A DNA stretch of 34,236 nucleotides from Acidobacteriota bacterium (lineage in GTDB: Bacteria > Acidobacteriota > Terriglobia > Acidiferrales > UBA7541). The translations under genes were made by a program, and so were the position numbers. This document shows positions 1 to 7,652 of this stretch, in pieces; the stretch's first letter is position 1, and every line of letters starts with the position of its first letter. The stretch is from positions 1 through 34,236 of the forward strand of contig PMES01000060.1 in assembly GCA_003154775.1 (NCBI GenBank). Reading direction: 5' to 3'. The notes beneath the pieces were generated by a model. The model was given only the letters and a program-made list of their open reading frames with translations, ran no database searches and was not told the DNA's origin.

Positions 1-220
1 GCCAGCCATCGTTGTCGTAGTCAATGAAGGCCACACCCGGCCCCATCGTTTCCGGCAGGTATTTTTTACCGAAGGCCGCATTGTTGTGGACAAAATGGAT
101 GCCGGCCTTTTGCGTGATGTCGCGAAACGTGATGGTGTTGGCCGAGGAACTCTGCGGCGTTTGCGCGCTCGCTCCCATCGCGCAAGATAACAGAAAGAGC
201 GCTAACCAAAATCTCCTCAC
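1..220 (-). CDS. CRTAC1-type FG-GAP/VCBS repeat protein, N-terminal part (cut by window edge)
   Basis: Only the first 73 codons are present. Translation from GTG at 220-218 gives a hydrophobic signal peptide (residues 1 to about 19, ending near ASAQ), then [28 protein letters not shown] and FIDYDNDGW. These match the start of the first FG-GAP blade of the CRTAC1/ASPIC-UnbV family and are closely alike to the gene at 3890-5575 (DVTSNAG, LPETLGSG, FLDYDADGW). The family consists of secreted, Ca-binding beta-propeller proteins, usually of unknown substrate. The start codon overlaps the TGA of the upstream selenoprotein gene as GTGA, so it is probably translationally coupled to it and part of the cytochrome operon. 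The C-terminal ASPIC/UnbV domain would lie outside the window, so its presence is inferred. Confidence 0.85.
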
Positions 221-801
221 TGGCCCTCCGCCGTTCCTTCGCGGCCCACGCCCAAAGCATCCGCCACGCGGTTGATGTAGTTGAACCACGAGGCGATCAG
301 GGTAATCTGCAAAATGCCGCGGTCGTCGAAGCCCGCGGCGCGCAGCTTCTTGTGGTCCGCGGGACTGCACTGCGTCGCATCTTTCGTAAGTTTCACCACA
401 TACTCCAGCATGGTTTTGTCCTGCTCGCTGATGGGGGCGGAGCGGAAATCCTTGCGCAAGGCCTCCACCAACTCTTCGTTCAAACTGACGCGACGCAGAA
501 ACTCTGCGTGGGATTCGATTCAATAGAAGCAGCGGTTCGTCACGGAAACCATCGTGGCGATCATTTCGTGCTTATCGCGCCGCAAAGGGAGCTCTGGCGA
601 CATCAGCGCCCCAAACGTGCTGAAGGCATGAAACAGCACTTGGGGGAACAGGCTGTGCGAACCGACGATGCTGTTCTCAATGCCGTGATCCACAATCGGT
701 ACAGGCGTCGCGTACTCCATGGGATACAGCTTGCGCTGCTCCATCATGGCTTTGCGCACCTGCTCGTCGTCTTCCATCTTTATCGTCTTGATCCAGGTCA
801 T
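217..801 (-). CDS. AhpD-like (CMD family) peroxidase-related selenoprotein, CxxU active site, Sec at in-frame TGA 520-522
   Basis: One 194-residue reading frame runs from ATG at 801-799 (AAAGGA ribosome binding site about 8 nt upstream) to TGA at 219-217, with a single in-frame TGA at 522-520. On both sides of that TGA the protein is colinear with the carboxymuconolactone decarboxylase/AhpD 'peroxidase-related' family. The upstream part ends [20 protein letters not shown]. The downstream part starts [10 protein letters not shown] and ends in [13 protein letters not shown]. The family active site is E(x11)CxxC(x3)H. Here E79, C91 and H98 are all present, and the TGA stands at residue 94, the position of the nucleophilic second Cys. 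A SECIS-like hairpin follows (separate entry). I read the product as a thiol/selenol peroxidase or disulfide reductase. It lies 37 nt downstream of the multihaem cytochrome and overlaps the next FG-GAP gene by GTGA. A pseudogene or sequence error is the alternative, but the hairpin argues against it. Confidence 0.85.
493..509 (-). promoter_or_regulatory. Bacterial SECIS element (selenocysteine insertion hairpin)
   Basis: Read on the minus strand, the sequence after the UGA is 10 nt of spacer and then ACGCAGA-GUU-UCUGCGU, a perfect 7-bp stem with a GUU loop. The loop G is the 18th nucleotide after UGA, close to its place in E. coli fdhF, whose 17-nt minimal upper stem-loop also carries GU in the loop. 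Unlike fdhF there is no bulged U in the stem. The element lies inside the coding sequence, as bacterial SECIS elements do, and would recruit SelB-GTP-Sec-tRNA. Confidence 0.8.
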
Positions 802-838: not shown

Positions 839-3694
839 TCAGCGGCCTGCGCCTGCCACAGCCTTCTTGGCCGGCGCGTTCTTTGCCATGGCAGCGGCCT
901 TCGCGGATTTCGCCCCCGTCGCGGGGCCGAGCGGGACCGAAACATGCTCGTGGATCGATTGGCGTTCATTGTTGTCTTCCGGATGCGCTTGACGGTACGC
1001 CCCGGTCAGCGCCTGCGAGGCTTCATCGGCTTTGAAGCGCAAGTATCGTTCCTTATGTTCGTTGGCGCGTGCCTCGTCGCCCAGGCCGGTGTAGCAGAGC
1101 ATCAGATTGTAATTCGCCTGGAGGTCTTCCGGGTCGATCGCGAGAGTCTGCTGGAGTTCCTTCACCGCATCGGCGTAGCGCTTCTGCAGGAAGAGTACGC
1201 GGCCCAATTCGTTGTGGACCACGCGGTCGCGCGGGTATTGCGCCAGCACGGCTTGCAATGCTTGCGCCGCCTCGTCGTACTTGCCCTCTTCCTTCAAAAC
1301 GCGCGCATAGAAGAAATTTGCCCGCGCCAGGCCCGGCTTCAGCGCCAGGGCTTTCAGCAGCACCTCGCGCGCGCCCTCGATGTTTCCTTCCTGCACGCGC
1401 ACGCGCCCGACGTTTGTCCAGCCATCGGGGTTTTGCGGATCCATCTCCGTGATTTTCTCGAACGCCTGCTCCGCTCCTTTCAGGTCGCCTTGGAGAAACA
1501 GTCCAATGCCGTAATCGTTCCAGCGCGTCCAGTCCTCTTTCACCCACGCCACCTGGGGCTTCGGCGCCGCAGCCGATTTCGGCAAAACGCGAAGGCTTTT
1601 CGTGTCTTCCGCCACGGCGATGATCGGCAAATTCGGAATCGCATTGATTTTGCTCGAAACATGCGAGAAGTCGCCGTTGAAGTTCCATTTGCGATCGTCG
1701 TGGTCCGGCGTAACGTCACCCGTCGAGTGCGGGTCAGGCACGCCCCCGAATGCAAACTGCGTGTTCCACCACTGGAATTTCCGGTAGTTCAACTTGGCGT
1801 GCAGGTTGATGTGTTCGCCCGCGTTTTCAGGCACGTGCAGGCGGTAGTGCACTGTATCCGCGGCGCCGGGAGGTATCAGCCGAACATAAACAACGGCGCG
1901 GCTCGCCCACGCATTGCGCTTGTTGATGGGATTGCCGTGCGCATCAATCTGTAGCGATTTGTAAAAGTGTGCCCCAGGATCGACCGGGCCTTTGCCATCA
2001 TCCTCAACCTTGCCGCTCCAGAAAATCGTCTGCCCTTTATCATCCGTGGCCTGCAATTCAACCCAGACGTCGAAGGCGTCGATCGTGCCGCCCGGGAAGA
2101 AATGCCCGACCTTGCGCGTACGCACTACAACTTCCACCAGCACATCATCCCCGCGGCGCACCATCGCATCCACGCGGCCAAGAGGCGCGGTGATCTCCCG
2201 CGCTTCTCCAGCCGGGCCTTTCGGCAGGGAAACATCCGCCTCTTCGCCCACCGCGAAGGTTGTCGAGAGTTCCTGCTTCGGCGCTTCCGCGGTCTTTTGC
2301 TCTCCCTTGCTCCCTGCCGGGGCAATCGCAAAAATATCCACGCTCAGTTGCTTGTCCTGCAAAAACTTCCGGCTCGCATCCAATTGAGAAGCATCCTCAT
2401 TCGCAACTGGCACCGCAGTGTTCGCTCCGGGGAAGCGGTGCGAGTGCACATAGCCGTCAATATTGCCTTCGTCCTTCGATGGCACTAATGGCATGTGGCA
2501 GTCCGCGCACATCATCGGAGTTGCCGGGTAATAAAATGACCGCGCGCCCTGCCCGGAAACGCCGCTGGCCTGCCAGTTGTCGTACTCGTTGAAACCCCGA
2601 ACCCAGCGATAGCTGTTCAGCGGCACGTCCAGGTGCACCTTGTGGCAGCCGGAGCAGAACTCCGGCACCTGATTCCTCATGAATGGCTTCAGAAACACGC
2701 GGCGGTGGGGCTCCGGATTCAGGCGCACCATAAAGTCATGAAGCCCTCGGATGATGGGATTGTCGCTCGCGGCCAATTCGTGCAGTTTCGGGTATTCCAG
2801 CACGAAATCGCCTTGCCCCATGGTGCTTTTCACCTGCACGATGCTGTGGCACATCATGCAGCTCAGGCCAGCCTGCGCTTCGGGCTTGTCGATGTTCTGC
2901 TTGATCGGTGCATCCATCATCCCGCTGAAGAGCAACGCGGGGTCGTGGCAACCCGCGCACCACTTCGACGGCTGCACGCCGGCGACGTCCTGCATGTACT
3001 CGATGCTCTTGCGGTACCACTGGTTGTTGAAGGAGGAAAAATGGTGCATCGAGCTTTCCCACTGTTTGTAAATGTCCGCGTGGCAGCGTTCGCAGGCTTG
3101 CGATTTCAGGAAATACCCGGAAGGGATGTACTGACCGTCGGTGGTTTGCGCGGAACTCGGAAAGAATTTTCCGTGCGCGCCGTCGCCCTCCTGCAACATC
3201 GTGGCCGGCGAAATCGGCGGATTCTGCACGACGTAGCGATTCTTCCAGGCAAATTCCCGGGCATACCAGGAGCCCGCGGCGATACCCGAGGTCAACAGCA
3301 ACAGTGCGGCGAAACCCGCTGCTTGTCTTCCGATGCTCGCGCCGAGCCACCCTCTTGCGGAGAGCCACGAAGCCGCTAGAAAAATCACGCCCAGGGTGCA
3401 CAGGGCAATATGTGCATACAACCAGGCTTTCAAACGATGCGGCGTTCCCAGGCGAATCAACGCCAGGCCCAAAGCCGCGCCCGCTGCAAACAGAATCCAA
3501 CCGCAGCGCGCCAGCAACCGCTCCTTGCCGATTCCTCGAAATAGAAATACCACCAGCGCCAGCGAAACCAGCACACCCAGACCGGTGTGCAGAAGAACCG
3601 CGCCGGCATAAACGAGAGTCGCGGATGGATAGGCGTAGAGATAAATTGCGGTTACAACGAGGACAAACACGCCAAGCGAGCGCCAGCGTTCCAT
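839..3694 (-). CDS. Membrane-anchored five-haem cytochrome c with C-terminal TPR domain
   Basis: A 951-residue protein. About five hydrophobic segments occupy residues 1-145. They are followed by an exported domain with five CxxCH haem c sites: CERCH near 201, CAGCH near 246, CMMCH near 279, CSGCH near 347 and CADCH near 396. Their spacing resembles cytochrome c554/c552-type multihaem proteins. A beta-rich stretch with HFFPGGT and WWNTQFAFGG comes next. Residues of roughly 740-890 form TPR repeats (AEQAFEKITEMDPQNPDGWTN-type), and the C-terminus is Ala/Lys-rich. The likely role is electron transfer in the cell envelope, with the TPRs as a docking surface; the partner is unknown. I chose ATG at 3694-3692 over an in-frame TTG 13 codons upstream because the ATG follows a G-rich Shine-Dalgarno-like stretch. 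The gene is followed after 37 nt by the selenoprotein, suggesting a redox operon. Confidence 0.85.
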   Translation of the reverse strand: MERWRSLGVFVLVVTAIYLYAYPSATLVYAGAVLLHTGLGVLVSLALVVFLFRGIGKERLLARCGWILFAAGAALGLALIRLGTPHRLKAWLYAHIALCTLGVIFLAASWLSARGWLGASIGRQAAGFAALLLLTSGIAAGSWYAREFAWKNRYVVQNPPISPATMLQEGDGAHGKFFPSSAQTTDGQYIPSGYFLKSQACERCHADIYKQWESSMHHFSSFNNQWYRKSIEYMQDVAGVQPSKWCAGCHDPALLFSGMMDAPIKQNIDKPEAQAGLSCMMCHSIVQVKSTMGQGDFVLEYPKLHELAASDNPIIRGLHDFMVRLNPEPHRRVFLKPFMRNQVPEFCSGCHKVHLDVPLNSYRWVRGFNEYDNWQASGVSGQGARSFYYPATPMMCADCHMPLVPSKDEGNIDGYVHSHRFPGANTAVPVANEDASQLDASRKFLQDKQLSVDIFAIAPAGSKGEQKTAEAPKQELSTTFAVGEEADVSLPKGPAGEAREITAPLGRVDAMVRRGDDVLVEVVVRTRKVGHFFPGGTIDAFDVWVELQATDDKGQTIFWSGKVEDDGKGPVDPGAHFYKSLQIDAHGNPINKRNAWASRAVVYVRLIPPGAADTVHYRLHVPENAGEHINLHAKLNYRKFQWWNTQFAFGGVPDPHSTGDVTPDHDDRKWNFNGDFSHVSSKINAIPNLPIIAVAEDTKSLRVLPKSAAAPKPQVAWVKEDWTRWNDYGIGLFLQGDLKGAEQAFEKITEMDPQNPDGWTNVGRVRVQEGNIEGAREVLLKALALKPGLARANFFYARVLKEEGKYDEAAQALQAVLAQYPRDRVVHNELGRVLFLQKRYADAVKELQQTLAIDPEDLQANYNLMLCYTGLGDEARANEHKERYLRFKADEASQALTGAYRQAHPEDNNERQSIHEHVSVPLGPATGAKSAKAAAMAKNAPAKKAVAGAGR

Positions 3695-3735
3695 TCCCCC
3701 CCATCCAACCTGGTTCAACTGCCCTATCCCCAAGA

Positions 3736-3889: not shown

Positions 3890-5575
3890 TTAGAACTGGA
3901 AGATTTCCTTAATGCCTTTATTTTCAATGATTTGGTAGGCCTTCCCGGTCTTGAGTTTCTGGTGCTCCTGGCTCTGCCCGCTGGGCCAGTCCACGACCAC
4001 GCGGTCAATGACGTCCTGCTTGCCCACGCCAAACATTACTGGCAATTCCGATTGCGACAAATAGCTGGAGCCGCTGCGAACGACGCGCAACTCCGTCTGG
4101 CCATTGAAGAAAATCCGCACGTTCGCACCGATGGCGTCGCGATTCGATTTGGTGCCGATCAAGTGGAAGCGAATGCTGCGATTGCCGGAGAGCTGATCAT
4201 TGCGATAGAGAAACGCCGGCCCGTTGTTGGTGGTGAGCAGAAGATCCTGATCGCCGTCATGATCGAAATCGCCGACGGCCAGGCCGCGCCCGACTTTGGG
4301 CAAATCATATCCGCCGCCGATATCTCCGGCGATGTCGCGGAATTTGCCGCGGCCGAGGTTCAGAAAAAGCTGCGCGGGCTGCGCGTAGCCGACGTTGCCG
4401 CGAATGTGGCGCACCGTATCATCGATGTGGCCGTTGGCGACGGCGATATCCAGGAGCCCGTCCAGGTCCGCGTCAAAAAAAACGCAGCCGAAACCCAAGG
4501 TGTTCCGCGAAGCCGCGCCAAGTCCCGTTTGCATGGCCACATCGTCGTAGGCCTGGCCCGTCTTGCGGTAGAGTCCGATCATCTCGTTGTCAAAATTGGT
4601 GATGATGATGCCCGGCTTGCCGGAATTGTCGTAGTCGGCGACGTCCACGCCCATGCCGGCACGCGCCTTGCCGTCGACGCTGAACGCCAGGCCCGCCTCC
4701 ACGGCCGCATCCTTGAATTTGCCGTTGTGCAAATTACGGTACAGTTTGTTGGGCTGCGTGTCATTCGCGACCAACAGGTCCGGCCAACCGTCCTGATCGT
4801 AGTCCAGCATGGCCACGCCGAGGGATTTGGAACTGCTGTCAAAGATGCCGCTGGTCGCGGTTACATCCTCAAACGTGCCGTTGCCCCGATTGTGGTAGAG
4901 CCAGCAGGTGTCTCCGCGATATGCTTCCGGCGTGCAATAGGATTTGTTTTTGCCATCGAGGCTGCAAAAGACGTCGGTCTCCGCGGTCCAATGGACATAA
5001 TTGCAGACAAACAGATCGAGGAAGCCATCGCGATCGTAATCGAACCAGATCGCCGAACTGCTCAGCCCTTGCTTCCCGAGCAGGCCGCTGGCCTTGGTGA
5101 CGTCGCGAAATGTGCCCTTGCCGGTGTTGCGGAACAACCGGCTCTGTCCCACGCAGGAGATGAAAATGTCAGGAAAGCCGTCGTTGTTGTAGTCGCCCAC
5201 TGCCACGCCCATGCCGTACATTTCCACGTCCAGGCCCGCCGCCTGGGTCACGTCCGTGAACGTGCCGTTGCGGTTGTTGCGATACAACTTCATGGTTGTC
5301 CGCTGGCGCTTGTGCCCCGGCCAATCCATGGAGTTCACTAGAAGAATGTCCTGCCAGCCATCCGCGTCGTAATCCAGAAATGCGCAGCCGGATCCCAGGG
5401 TTTCGGGAAGCAGCTTGCCGCCGTACGCCCCGCTGTTATGCTGGAAGCGCAAACCCGCGTTGCTGGTAACATCTACAAAACGAAATCCTGCCGGAGCGGC
5501 GGGCAGGGCGCGAGGAAAGGCCGCGTGGATCAGCCCCGCCCCAACGGCCTGCCGGATGAAATCGCGGCGCTTCAC
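3890..5575 (-). CDS. CRTAC1 family protein: FG-GAP/VCBS beta-propeller with ASPIC/UnbV domain
   Basis: A 561-residue exported protein. The N-terminus MKRRDFIRQAVGAG fits a twin-arginine signal, suggesting Tat export of a folded or metal-loaded protein. Repeated FG-GAP/VCBS blades run from about residue 30 to 470, each with a Ca-binding Dx[DN]xDG loop: DYDADGWQD, DYNNDGFPD, DYDRDGFLD, DYDQDGWPD, DADLDGLLD, DFDHDGDQD. Residues of about 480-550 match the ASPIC/UnbV domain (SNRDAIGANVRI, RSGSSYLSQSE, VDWPSG). The start is GTG at 5575-5573, overlapping the response regulator TGA as GTGA, so the surface protein is translationally coupled to a regulator. The family's substrate is unknown. A paralogue begins at 220, and the pair flanks the cytochrome/selenoprotein genes. 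Confidence 0.92.
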   Translation of the reverse strand: MKRRDFIRQAVGAGLIHAAFPRALPAAPAGFRFVDVTSNAGLRFQHNSGAYGGKLLPETLGSGCAFLDYDADGWQDILLVNSMDWPGHKRQRTTMKLYRNNRNGTFTDVTQAAGLDVEMYGMGVAVGDYNNDGFPDIFISCVGQSRLFRNTGKGTFRDVTKASGLLGKQGLSSSAIWFDYDRDGFLDLFVCNYVHWTAETDVFCSLDGKNKSYCTPEAYRGDTCWLYHNRGNGTFEDVTATSGIFDSSSKSLGVAMLDYDQDGWPDLLVANDTQPNKLYRNLHNGKFKDAAVEAGLAFSVDGKARAGMGVDVADYDNSGKPGIIITNFDNEMIGLYRKTGQAYDDVAMQTGLGAASRNTLGFGCVFFDADLDGLLDIAVANGHIDDTVRHIRGNVGYAQPAQLFLNLGRGKFRDIAGDIGGGYDLPKVGRGLAVGDFDHDGDQDLLLTTNNGPAFLYRNDQLSGNRSIRFHLIGTKSNRDAIGANVRIFFNGQTELRVVRSGSSYLSQSELPVMFGVGKQDVIDRVVVDWPSGQSQEHQKLKTGKAYQIIENKGIKEIFQF

Positions 5576-6201
5576 GGAAGATTCACCAGCCCGTTGCGAA
5601 TCGCATAGACCACCAGCTCAGCCGTTTTGTGGATGCCCAGTGCATCCATGATATTCGCGCGATGGACGGACACCGTGTTTACGCTCAAACTCAATTCCGT
5701 GGCGATTTCCTTGTTCGATTTGCCCGCGACGATGTGCTGCAGTATTTCCAGCTCGCGCGGTGTGAGACCGGTGTCGCGCTCGCCCTTCAGCGCACCGCCT
5801 CGCGCAATCTGCGGATCGAGTACGGTCTGGCCCTCGGCCACTTTCTTGATCGCGCTGACGAGGTCCAGGTCCATCGCGTTCTTCAGGATGTAGCCCCGCG
5901 CGCCCGCTTCCAGCGCCTGCTTCACCAACGTGTCTTCCGAGTGCATGCTCAGCATCAGGATGGCGGTTTCCGGCAGCTTCGCCAGGATGCGCCGCGAAGC
6001 TTCAATGCCGTTCATCTGCGGCAGCGCACAATCCATCACGATGACATCGGGACGCAACTCCAGCGCCAGCTCCACCGCTTCCAGGCCATCGCTCGCTTCG
6101 CCGGCGACCTGAAACGTTGGCTCGTCCTCCAACATGCGGCGAAATCCGCGGCGCACCAGCGCGTGGTCGTCCACCAGCAGAACTCTCAATTTATTCGCCA
6201 T
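5572..6201 (-). CDS. Two-component response regulator, NarL/FixJ family (REC-LuxR HTH)
   Basis: A 209-residue regulator. The receiver domain (about 5-120) has the acidic pair D11/D12, the phospho-acceptor D57 in VIVMD, and conserved K107 in YILK. The LuxR-type helix-turn-helix (about 145-205) reads LTPRELEILQHIVAGKSNKEIATEL and VNTVSVHRANIMDALG. I start it at ATG 6201-6199 (MANKLRVLLVDD); an upstream extension of the frame has no receiver homology. Its 5' end overlaps the kinase gene by 11 bases and its TGA overlaps the FG-GAP start, so kinase, regulator and FG-GAP protein are likely made from one mRNA. It probably activates DNA targets after phosphorylation by the adjacent kinase; the targets are unknown, but the downstream redox genes are candidates. 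Confidence 0.93.
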   Translation of the reverse strand: MANKLRVLLVDDHALVRRGFRRMLEDEPTFQVAGEASDGLEAVELALELRPDVIVMDCALPQMNGIEASRRILAKLPETAILMLSMHSEDTLVKQALEAGARGYILKNAMDLDLVSAIKKVAEGQTVLDPQIARGGALKGERDTGLTPRELEILQHIVAGKSNKEIATELSLSVNTVSVHRANIMDALGIHKTAELVVYAIRNGLVNLP

Positions 6202-7531
6202 GCGTTTCCGCCCTTTCCCGCGGAATGTGGATCTGCACCAGCGTGCCTCCGCCCGCAATCGGCGTAACCTTCAGCGTGCCGCCGAGGATTTCCGCGCGTT
6301 CCCGCATGGCCACCAACCCAATGCCAGTGTGGCCTGCCGGAGGCGCGAATCCCTTTCCGCGATCTTCCACTTCCAATTCGAGGCTGGCGGGCTGAAAGCG
6401 CAAACGGACCCAGGCTTCCTTCGCACCGGAATGCCGCGCCACATTGTTGAGCGCCTCTTGAACCAAGCGGTACAGTTGTACGCTCGCGCTTGTTTCCAAC
6501 GGAAACGCCTGGCCCGATTTCTCGTAATGCAGCGCGAGTCCCGTCTGGCGTTCCACCGTGGGAATGTACCAGTCAAGCGTGCTTTCCAGCCCGGCCTCTT
6601 CAAGCAAAACAGGATGCAGCGCCTGCGAGAGGCTGCGGATATTATTCAGCGTGGTCTGGGCAATTTCCCTTACTTCCTGCAAGTCTTCACGCAGGGCCGA
6701 ATTTTCCGGCATGTCTTTATCGGCGCGGCGCAACAGCGAGCCAATCGCCGTGAGCACCTGGCCGAATTCATCGTGCAGCTCGCGCGAGATGTGCCGCAGC
6801 GTGGATTCCTGCGTGGCGATCAGCTTCTGCGCAAGCTCGCTGCGTTGCAGCGACAATTCCGCGACGTGCGCAAAAATCCGCCGGTTGTAGCGGATCATAT
6901 ACAGGCTGGTGACCACAATCGCCAGCAGAATCGCGGCCAGAAAATAGTAGAGCTGGCGCTGCACACGATCGTAGATCTCCGCGATGCGCGCGGCGGCCTG
7001 CTCCTCGCCTTCATTGTTTTGCACCAGCAGGCGGGAAACCGCGGAACTCAAAGCCGCTTGCTGCGGCTGCAGGGTATCGCGAATCTGCTCGCGCGCGGCC
7101 TGCTCCTGGCCATTTTGCGCCTGCGAGAACATGCGGTCGCAGGCGTCCCAGAATTGCGTCAGCGACTGGGTCAGGTAACGCCGTTGATCGCTGGTGCGCG
7201 TGGCCTCCGCCAGATTCTCTTCCTGCCGGAGCGCCGCGCTTAGATCGTTGCGGGTGCGATCGAATTGCGCGGTCCAGGCGATCAGGGGGTAAGGCTCGCT
7301 GGCATCGAGCATGTCCCGCATGGCCAGCCCCAGCGAGTTCAAATCGTTCTGGATGCGCAGGAGTTGCAGCGAATCCTTGCGGTTGCGATCTACCATTTCG
7401 CCCTGCAGCTTGCGCAGCCCCGAAAATTGCCGCGTGATGTAGCCGGCATAGGCCAGCACCGCGAGGATCGTGACGATCAGGCCGAGATAGAGGCCCAGGG
7501 TCGGGCCACGTTGCGGCGGACTTTTTTCCAC
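6191..7531 (-). CDS. Sensor histidine kinase, NarX/DegS-like (HisKA_3 + HATPase_c)
   Basis: A membrane kinase of about 446 residues. Two transmembrane helices (about 12-31 and 195-213) enclose a helical periplasmic domain of some 160 residues rich in Gln and Glu, resembling a four-helix-bundle ligand sensor. The HisKA_3 dimerisation box ISRELHDEFGQ carries the phospho-histidine (about residue 253). The ATPase domain shows the N box (VQEALNNVARHSGA) and G boxes (EDRGKGF, GIGLVAMRERAEILGG). The start is uncertain: GTG at 7531-7529 or TTG at 7537-7535. Neither has a clear Shine-Dalgarno sequence. A possible -10 (TATATC) lies just upstream, so the message may be almost leaderless. The gene heads the minus-strand block and is partner to the following response regulator. 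Confidence 0.92.
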   Translation of the reverse strand: MEKSPPQRGPTLGLYLGLIVTILAVLAYAGYITRQFSGLRKLQGEMVDRNRKDSLQLLRIQNDLNSLGLAMRDMLDASEPYPLIAWTAQFDRTRNDLSAALRQEENLAEATRTSDQRRYLTQSLTQFWDACDRMFSQAQNGQEQAAREQIRDTLQPQQAALSSAVSRLLVQNNEGEEQAAARIAEIYDRVQRQLYYFLAAILLAIVVTSLYMIRYNRRIFAHVAELSLQRSELAQKLIATQESTLRHISRELHDEFGQVLTAIGSLLRRADKDMPENSALREDLQEVREIAQTTLNNIRSLSQALHPVLLEEAGLESTLDWYIPTVERQTGLALHYEKSGQAFPLETSASVQLYRLVQEALNNVARHSGAKEAWVRLRFQPASLELEVEDRGKGFAPPAGHTGIGLVAMRERAEILGGTLKVTPIAGGGTLVQIHIPRERAETHGE

Positions 7532-7652
7532 GAGCAAAGGATATAACGTTGCCGCGACGGGAACAAATGCCGGCTATGCGATCTCCACGGCGCCGACTGG
7601 CGCGTCGGTGATACACTGCTGACGATTTCACACAATTCCTGGAGCGCGGCGC

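Follow-up and report, generated by a model that had tools for sequence, protein, structure and literature searches.

An AhpD-like gene with a putative selenocysteine codon is conserved across bacterial phyla and lies beside a five-haem cytochrome gene in Acidiferrum-like bacteria

The window, i.e., the whole stretch of DNA that was analysed, comprises 34236 bases and is an entire contig (C55) of a genome of 4.6 Mb that is 98.2% complete. The closest match in a scan of named genomes was Candidatus Acidiferrum typicum at 92% identity, a member of Acidobacteriota, Terriglobia, Candidatus Acidiferrales according to the NCBI taxonomy. On its minus strand, the window carries an AhpD/CMD frame of 194 residues (801-217), which by direct reading starts with an ATG at 801, ends with a TGA at 219-217 and contains a single interruption, a TGA at 522-520. 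The initial annotation had taken the two ORFs on either side of this codon as one hidden AhpD-like gene with a CxxU active site, and this reading held: the coordinates were exact, the CMD match spans the TGA, and the same TGA occurs in relatives. Direct reading also bore out that the TGA replaces the second Cys of the AhpD/CMD CxxC motif (C91-F-Y-U94), while Glu79, Cys91 and His98 are retained; the active-site motif reads N-R-C91-F-Y-U94-I-E-S-H98, in addition to E79. As had been expected of gene callers, standard ORF calling cuts the frame at the TGA and yields fragments.

The features of the region are listed in Table 1. The protein encoded upstream has a hydrophobic N-terminus, five CXXCH haem motifs and a C-terminal TPR region, and its gene is separated from the AhpD start by 37 nt. 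Downstream, the GTG start codon (220-218) of an FG-GAP/UnbV gene overlaps the AhpD stop, and the start of the encoded protein is signal-peptide-like.

Table 1. Features of the AhpD-like locus in the window, and positions of paired AhpD-like genes in a sister family
Feature	Position	Strand	Basis
Predicted AhpD-like (TIGR01926 / CMD) selenoprotein gene	217..801	minus	direct reading, Pfam CMD, TIGR01926
TGA codon 94, putatively read as selenocysteine, second position of CxxU	520..522	minus	homologue comparison
Cys91 codon, partner of Sec94 (resolving role inferred)	529..531	minus	homologue comparison
SECIS-like hairpin, ACGCAGA-GUU-UCUGCGU	493..509	minus	synonymous freeze, pairs, folding
Five-haem cytochrome-TPR gene (cytochrome c554-type)	839..3733	minus	Pfam, motif count, hydropathy
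FG-GAP/UnbV-type gene, start only (window ends)	2..220	minus	direct reading; full-length in relatives
FG-GAP + UnbV/ASPIC protein, second copy	3890..5575	minus	Pfam; same place in relatives
Response regulator (receiver + GerE/LuxR), open frame, start perhaps further in	5572..6258	minus	Pfam; conserved order
Sensor histidine kinase (HisKA_3 + HATPase), open frame	6191..7537	minus	Pfam; conserved order
Tail-to-tail pairs of AhpD-like genes, sister family f2	L056:230-1451, L057:2692-4214, L058:1-1004, L061:2613-3952		

The joined protein scored 32.7 bits with the Pfam CMD family (PF02627; cut-off 23), the matched residues 70-114 extending across the TGA. It reached 106 bits with TIGR01926 (peroxidase-related enzyme; curated cut-off 81.8), a model that was matched by all 31 aligned members at E 1e-5 or better. 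Two related profiles, NF041238 AhpD_rel_CFYUT, which carries CFYU in the model name, and NF053654 GroundWater_YciW, do not include it (56.6 bits against a curated cut-off of 175 and 31.2 against 310, respectively), and neither does the model for AhpD proper, TIGR00777 (19.8 against 191.95). No other NCBIfam model named as a (seleno)protein matched the 31 aligned members at E 1e-5, the cut-offs being compared for the first member. As the protein falls under the cut-offs of both similar NCBIfam (seleno)protein models, genes of this type will probably be split by automatic annotation. Among solved structures, a profile search ranked highest the peroxidase-related entries 2pfx, 3c1l, 2prr, 6k40 and 2oyo (E 4.7e-28 to 2.4e-21), which were also among the best by fold. 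An AlphaFold model of the protein (pLDDT 77.3, with a weak N-terminus) retrieved 6k40, 2pfx and 3c1l at the top of a fold search, with a probability of 1.00, a query TM of 0.63-0.70 and an rmsd of 3 to 7 for the best matches. The search also returned AhpD entries, followed at lower rank by the debrominase Bmp8, and 6k40, 2pfx, 3c1l and 2prr ranked near the top in both the sequence and the structure search. By its predicted structure, the protein has the AhpD fold. All 31 aligned members begin with M-x-W-I and no signal sequence is evident, so that the protein should be cytoplasmic.

The codon at position 94 was then compared among homologues. Fetched loci with at least 55% identity that cover the site were pooled and identical cores removed, which left 112 distinct sequences. 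In 111 of these, codon 94 is TGA, and in one it is TGC; Cys91 is likewise present in 111, with Thr taking its place in the Cys94 variant. Outside the last eight aligned columns, which were exempt from the stop count, there were zero other internal stops. The pooled count does not include a second copy from genome G267 (58% identity, one TGA) or a fragment on contig C105 of genome G079; the latter has five TGAs in the aligned frame, overlaps a better match in another frame and looks like a frameshifted or broken piece. Before as well as after the TGA, the proteins of 13 aligned relatives are 65-92% identical to that of the window. The alignment of the joined protein, which the initial annotation had proposed, hence gave a common TGA site and no further internal stop in the counted stretch, and the same TGA at the same codon across relatives shows that it is not there by chance.

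Wider searches gave the same picture. Species-representative genomes were scanned with two peptide patterns that exclude the site, yielding 317 stretches, 311 of which encode relatives. In the best 80 of these 311, codon 94 was TGA in 80 of 80 loci, which by record title belong to Acidobacteriota (68), Planctomycetota (5), Gemmatimonadota (4), Latescibacterota (1) and KSB1 (1), with one more labelled Betaproteobacteria. Within the order (95 genomes), a match at E 1e-5 or better was found in 69 genomes; the close form (at least 65% identity) was present in 36 of them, and in every one of these the matched stretch contained one TGA or more. Such stretches may include the gene's own stop, which explains the two-stop rows that were examined. 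In a sample of the phylum (396 genomes), 67 genomes had a match at E 1e-22; a TGA lay inside 29 of the 30 rows with at least 58% identity, the window's own included, and one row had none. The other 43 rows were 34-46% identical, except for one that was partial and did not reach the site; 42 of them contain a TGA, its exact place being established for a minority only. Plasmid records matching the protein numbered 239, all below 60% identity, and the annotation among the 20 listed was mostly 'peroxidase-related enzyme'. Some hits come from genomes that are close to complete, e.g., G219, G178 and G103. By sequence comparison, the putative Sec gene has changed very little between several bacterial phyla, and the lineage appears to be almost purely of the Sec form, with an unusually strict predicted use of selenocysteine.

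Related genes were also observed in a sister family (f2), where four genomes contain two different AhpD-like genes arranged tail to tail, about 220-530 nt apart (Table 1). Both genes have an in-frame TGA in L056, L057 and L061; in L058, the contig ends before the site of the second copy. The distant AhpD(Sec) genes L057:3651-4214 and L061:2613-3152 further contain an in-frame insertion with the residues SGQAG, placed directly behind the hairpin. The insertion is absent in L058 and resembles a short repetitive element that lies within a selenoprotein gene.

The genome of the window encodes the components for selenocysteine incorporation. All four genes that the initial annotation had suggested seeking were present: selC, a tRNA-Sec with tca anticodon, selB (361.5 bits, cut-off 242.25), selA (543.4 bits, cut-off 267.9) and selD (349.9 bits, cut-off 125), the last with one in-frame TGA inside. 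The own-genome SelD (L200, C102) is itself a selenoprotein, and the hairpin after its UGA differs, so it lends no direct support to the loop sequence of the AhpD hairpin; SelD matches from the order are mixed in this respect, a TGA being present inside some and missing from others. Of the 95 genomes of the order, 80 gave a selB, 83 a selA (82 over the cut-off) and 84 a selD match under the thresholds applied. The close TGA form occurred in 36 of the 90 genomes with at least one of selA, selB and selD, compared to none of the five with none of these genes (Fisher p 0.15). As the five sel-free genomes (G087, G088, G089, G090 and G092) form one genus and the p value is high, co-occurrence at the level of the order is too weak to serve as evidence by itself.

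The single Cys form stems from a genome that is 99% complete (G108, locus L198). Its gene has TGC at codon 94 and Thr at the position of Cys91, and the codons of the hairpin are lost. In this genome, no selA match was obtained at E 1e-20, and the best matches for selB (182.5 bits, cut-off 242.25) and selD (60.3 bits, cut-off 125) stayed under the cut-offs; of 15 matches to the tRNA-Sec model, none of the best eight had a tca anticodon. The models for selA, selB and selD all passed in four genomes with the Sec form that were run beside it. The only Cys copy has lost Cys91 and the hairpin as well, in a genome without detectable sel genes by these models. A Cys where the Sec machinery was not found, a single case, fits a selenocysteine at codon 94 in the other members, and the sequence suggests that residue 94, and not residue 91, may be the essential one. 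In a quick tree, the Cys form of G108 was placed inside the Sec clade (SH-aLRT 89) on a long branch; a topology in which the Sec rows were constrained together was not rejected (p-AU 0.42 with 63 of 118 rows). In G108, the Cys-form AhpD copy is followed by a TPR/FG-GAP gene and directly preceded by another CMD gene, which has a CxxC motif (L198:411-1184).

A hairpin with a stem of seven pairs and a three-base loop starting with G begins 10 nt past the TGA. The corresponding codons 98-103 read CAC GCA GAG TTT CTG CGT in 93 of the 112 distinct sequences, across phyla. Codon entropy was evaluated in 86 distinct sequences at 94 positions that are conserved and degenerate; for residues 98-103 it amounted to 0.09 of the expectation for the degeneracy, compared to a median of 1.04 for sliding sets, and none of 100000 random codon sets was as low. 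The hairpin is thus under strong constraint at the nucleotide level. Base pairing was counted in 39 of 95 distinct 42-nt stretches, which were chosen by hand to include distant relatives. In these, 94.1% of the hairpin cells pair, compared to 91.2% (sd 0.6) in shuffles, none of which was as high, and the covariation score exceeded that of all 500 shuffles. On two of the five measures the hairpin did not exceed its shuffles: only one of the seven pairs was changed on both sides, a value reached by 349 of 500 shuffles, and the five further pair types were equalled by 334 of 500; a C-G to G-C change occurred at one pair in five of the 39 sequences, and sliding the hairpin by +2 and +3 gave two pairs changed on both sides, compared to one in the hairpin itself. 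As the covariation is modest, the synonymous freeze is the main evidence for the hairpin. The 18-nt hairpin folds with -8.5 kcal/mol (z -3.97), and its 36-nt context gave a z of -1.12, with 28 of 200 shuffles as good. Rfam had no match within the window at the gathering threshold, and the assignment as SECIS accordingly draws on constraint and folding. In structure, position and constraint the element agrees with a SECIS-type hairpin, with weak covariation. Taken together with the conserved TGA and the sel genes, it is well supported by the sequence data that the two ORFs constitute an intact selenoprotein gene in which the UGA would be read as Sec.

The less expected part of the finding is the surrounding cluster with a five-haem cytochrome and FG-GAP/UnbV proteins. 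From the 36 close-form genomes of the order, 20 neighbourhoods were fetched. The complete series of kinase, regulator, UnbV, cytochrome, AhpD and UnbV was present in 13 of these; one had cytochrome, AhpD and UnbV only, two had kinase, regulator, UnbV and AhpD without the cytochrome, and in four AhpD lay apart from such a series. Among the best 80 named loci, which partly overlap these genomes, a cytochrome upstream and UnbV downstream were found in 21, all of them among the 25 nearest; the cytochromes have five CXXCH motifs in 19 cases and four in one, and one is cut at the contig end. In other lineages, a permease-type gene lies directly upstream of AhpD (20 of 80 loci), with a 4-nt overlap in seven loci and an AA_permease_2 match in the two that were scanned. 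The link with a multihaem cytochrome and FG-GAP proteins, which the initial annotation had singled out as not seen described before, is therefore real and conserved. It is restricted to Acidiferrum-like bacteria (21 of 80 loci): the cluster is a trait of this lineage and not a property of the family, and since the neighbours differ elsewhere, it does not define one function. A family-wide link between AhpD(Sec) and multihaem cytochromes was rejected, as only two loci beyond the 25 nearest have one within four genes. These are L130, where a related five-motif cytochrome is the second gene downstream of AhpD, and L163, which is described below; in addition, L129 has a protein with two CXXCH motifs within this distance, and in L157, a 30% match to the window's cytochrome lies about 7 kb upstream.

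Two further loci were recorded. In a locus from Gemmatimonadetes (L163:1268-8212), AhpD(Sec) is followed by three frames on the same strand with 8, 18 and 14 CXXCH motifs, the first of which matches multihaem cytochrome families. The locus titled Betaproteobacteria (L092, CAJCHZ010000047.1) has an Acidiferrum-type series of kinase, regulator, UnbV and AhpD and groups with Acidiferrum relatives in the tree; its title is probably wrong.

In AhpD, the second Cys attacks the peroxide and the first resolves, and Glu and His activate. By analogy, the window's protein would most likely be a selenol peroxidase with Sec94 as the attacking and Cys91 as the resolving residue, a role that is derived from family resemblance; AhpD-fold proteins include other activities, e.g., that of the debrominase Bmp8 (6ohi). 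We consider it likely that a UGA read as Sec with the aid of the hairpin gives rise to a peroxide-removing enzyme of AhpD fold that is tied to a redox system of the envelope. The ribosome would read the UGA at 522-520 as selenocysteine with SelB, tRNA-Sec, SelA and SelD, and the hairpin would guide the insertion. The product is predicted to be a cytoplasmic protein with Glu79, Cys91, Sec94 and His98, in which the selenolate of Sec94, activated via His98/Glu79, would attack a hydroperoxide; Cys91 would resolve the selenenic acid, and the resulting selenenylsulfide would be reduced by a cellular dithiol. In Acidiferrum-like bacteria, spacing and conserved order suggest that AhpD is probably co-expressed with the two-component system, a putatively membrane-bound five-haem cytochrome-TPR protein and two presumably exported FG-GAP/UnbV proteins. 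A peroxide or another electrophilic product would most likely be removed in connection with the redox system of the envelope, and the conserved cytochrome cluster is a place to look for the role of AhpD(Sec).

A more far-reaching reading, which we regard as rather unlikely, would make the Sec enzyme a dedicated part of an as yet undescribed, two-component-regulated envelope module, with Cys occurring only where the Sec machinery is gone. In Candidatus Acidiferrum-like bacteria, the five-haem cytochrome-TPR protein and the two FG-GAP/UnbV proteins would serve electron transfer within this module, and selenium chemistry would handle a specific peroxide or a halogenated or electrophilic substrate. 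Less probable still is that the Sec enzyme uses the AhpD fold for the selenol-dependent reduction of halogenated compounds or other electrophiles, similar to Bmp8. The fold search returned the Bmp8 entries 6ohi/6ohj (14-15% identity, E 1.4e-3 to 3.6e-3), Sec suits dehalogenation chemistry, as in deiodinases, and the permease gene upstream in other lineages suggests a small-molecule substrate; however, the sequence is closer to the five peroxidase-related structures, and no halogenase or dehalogenase family occurred among the scanned neighbours, some of which matched no family. We give slightly less weight to the possibility that the protein is a Sec-based thiol-disulfide/selenenylsulfide redox sensor or a partner of the neighbouring system rather than a detoxifying enzyme. 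The conservation of the two-component system and the cytochrome in the same cluster would be in line with this, but the arrangement is missing from 59 of 80 loci, and with no exported N-terminus evident and partners that look membrane-bound or exported, direct contact is not obvious.

Two alternatives concern the codon itself. A reading of the UGA as Trp or Cys by a code change or suppression would agree with the Cys in the sole non-TGA homologue, but is very improbable: TGA also terminates both the AhpD frame and the cytochrome frame, which speaks against a general change of the code, the genome holds the full sel set including tRNA-Sec, and the constrained hairpin after the UGA fits recoding of SelB type; this explanation was rejected. 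A nonsense mutation or assembly error, leaving a pseudogene or two short genes as standard ORF calling would have it, was likewise rejected as next to impossible in view of the TGA common to the homologues, the absence of other counted stops, the identity on either side in the 13 relatives and the nucleotide constraint directly downstream.

Among solved structures, the selenol peroxidase proposed here is closest by sequence profile to the peroxidase-related entries, of which 2pfx and 3c1l have a CxYC motif, i.e., Cys where the window's protein has Sec, in the two alignments shown. It also shares the AhpD fold with AhpD of Mycobacterium tuberculosis (1knc, 1gu9), a weak match by fold (best E about 0.1), whose Glu/Cys/Cys/His site we take to have the same spacing as that of the window's protein. 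Searches of the open-licence PMC literature for selenocysteine in Acidiferrum, or for UnbV together with a multiheme cytochrome, returned nothing; no description of the cytochrome/FG-GAP cluster with an AhpD(Sec) gene was found in the parts of this literature that were covered, and among the papers listed on selenoproteins in Acidobacteria no title or opening lines of an abstract described the gene. For this phylum, the sections consulted of one study count four selenoproteins of three families (PMC1794560), and another lists three known selenoproteins in Occallatibacter riparius, AhpD being absent from its main text (PMC12013277). AhpD-like selenoproteins as such were reported in 2006 (PMC1794560) and 2008 (PMC2398784), the former with an AhpD-like selenoprotein under COG2128. 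A review of 2026 (PMC13188914) tabulates, in the part covered, CxxU proteins under TIGR01926 and CMD as selenoproteins, with MCB9421940.1 as an example. As the window's protein passes TIGR01926 and shares both family model and CxxU motif with this entry, its kind is already known, and the three sources, to the extent covered, agree with the initial annotation on this point. The covered parts of the entry mention no cytochrome cluster, whereas the window's lineage has one. The GOS proteins AhpD-like 1 and 2 (PMC2398784, parts covered) have a CxxU like the window's protein, and AhpD-like 2 is assigned to CMD (pfam02627). In those data, Cys forms exceed Sec forms by 902 to 299 and 207 to 70, whereas 111 of the 112 members of the window's subfamily appear to be of the Sec form; such a lineage, in which nearly every member is of the Sec form and the hairpin is frozen, makes a good case for asking why Sec is kept instead of Cys.
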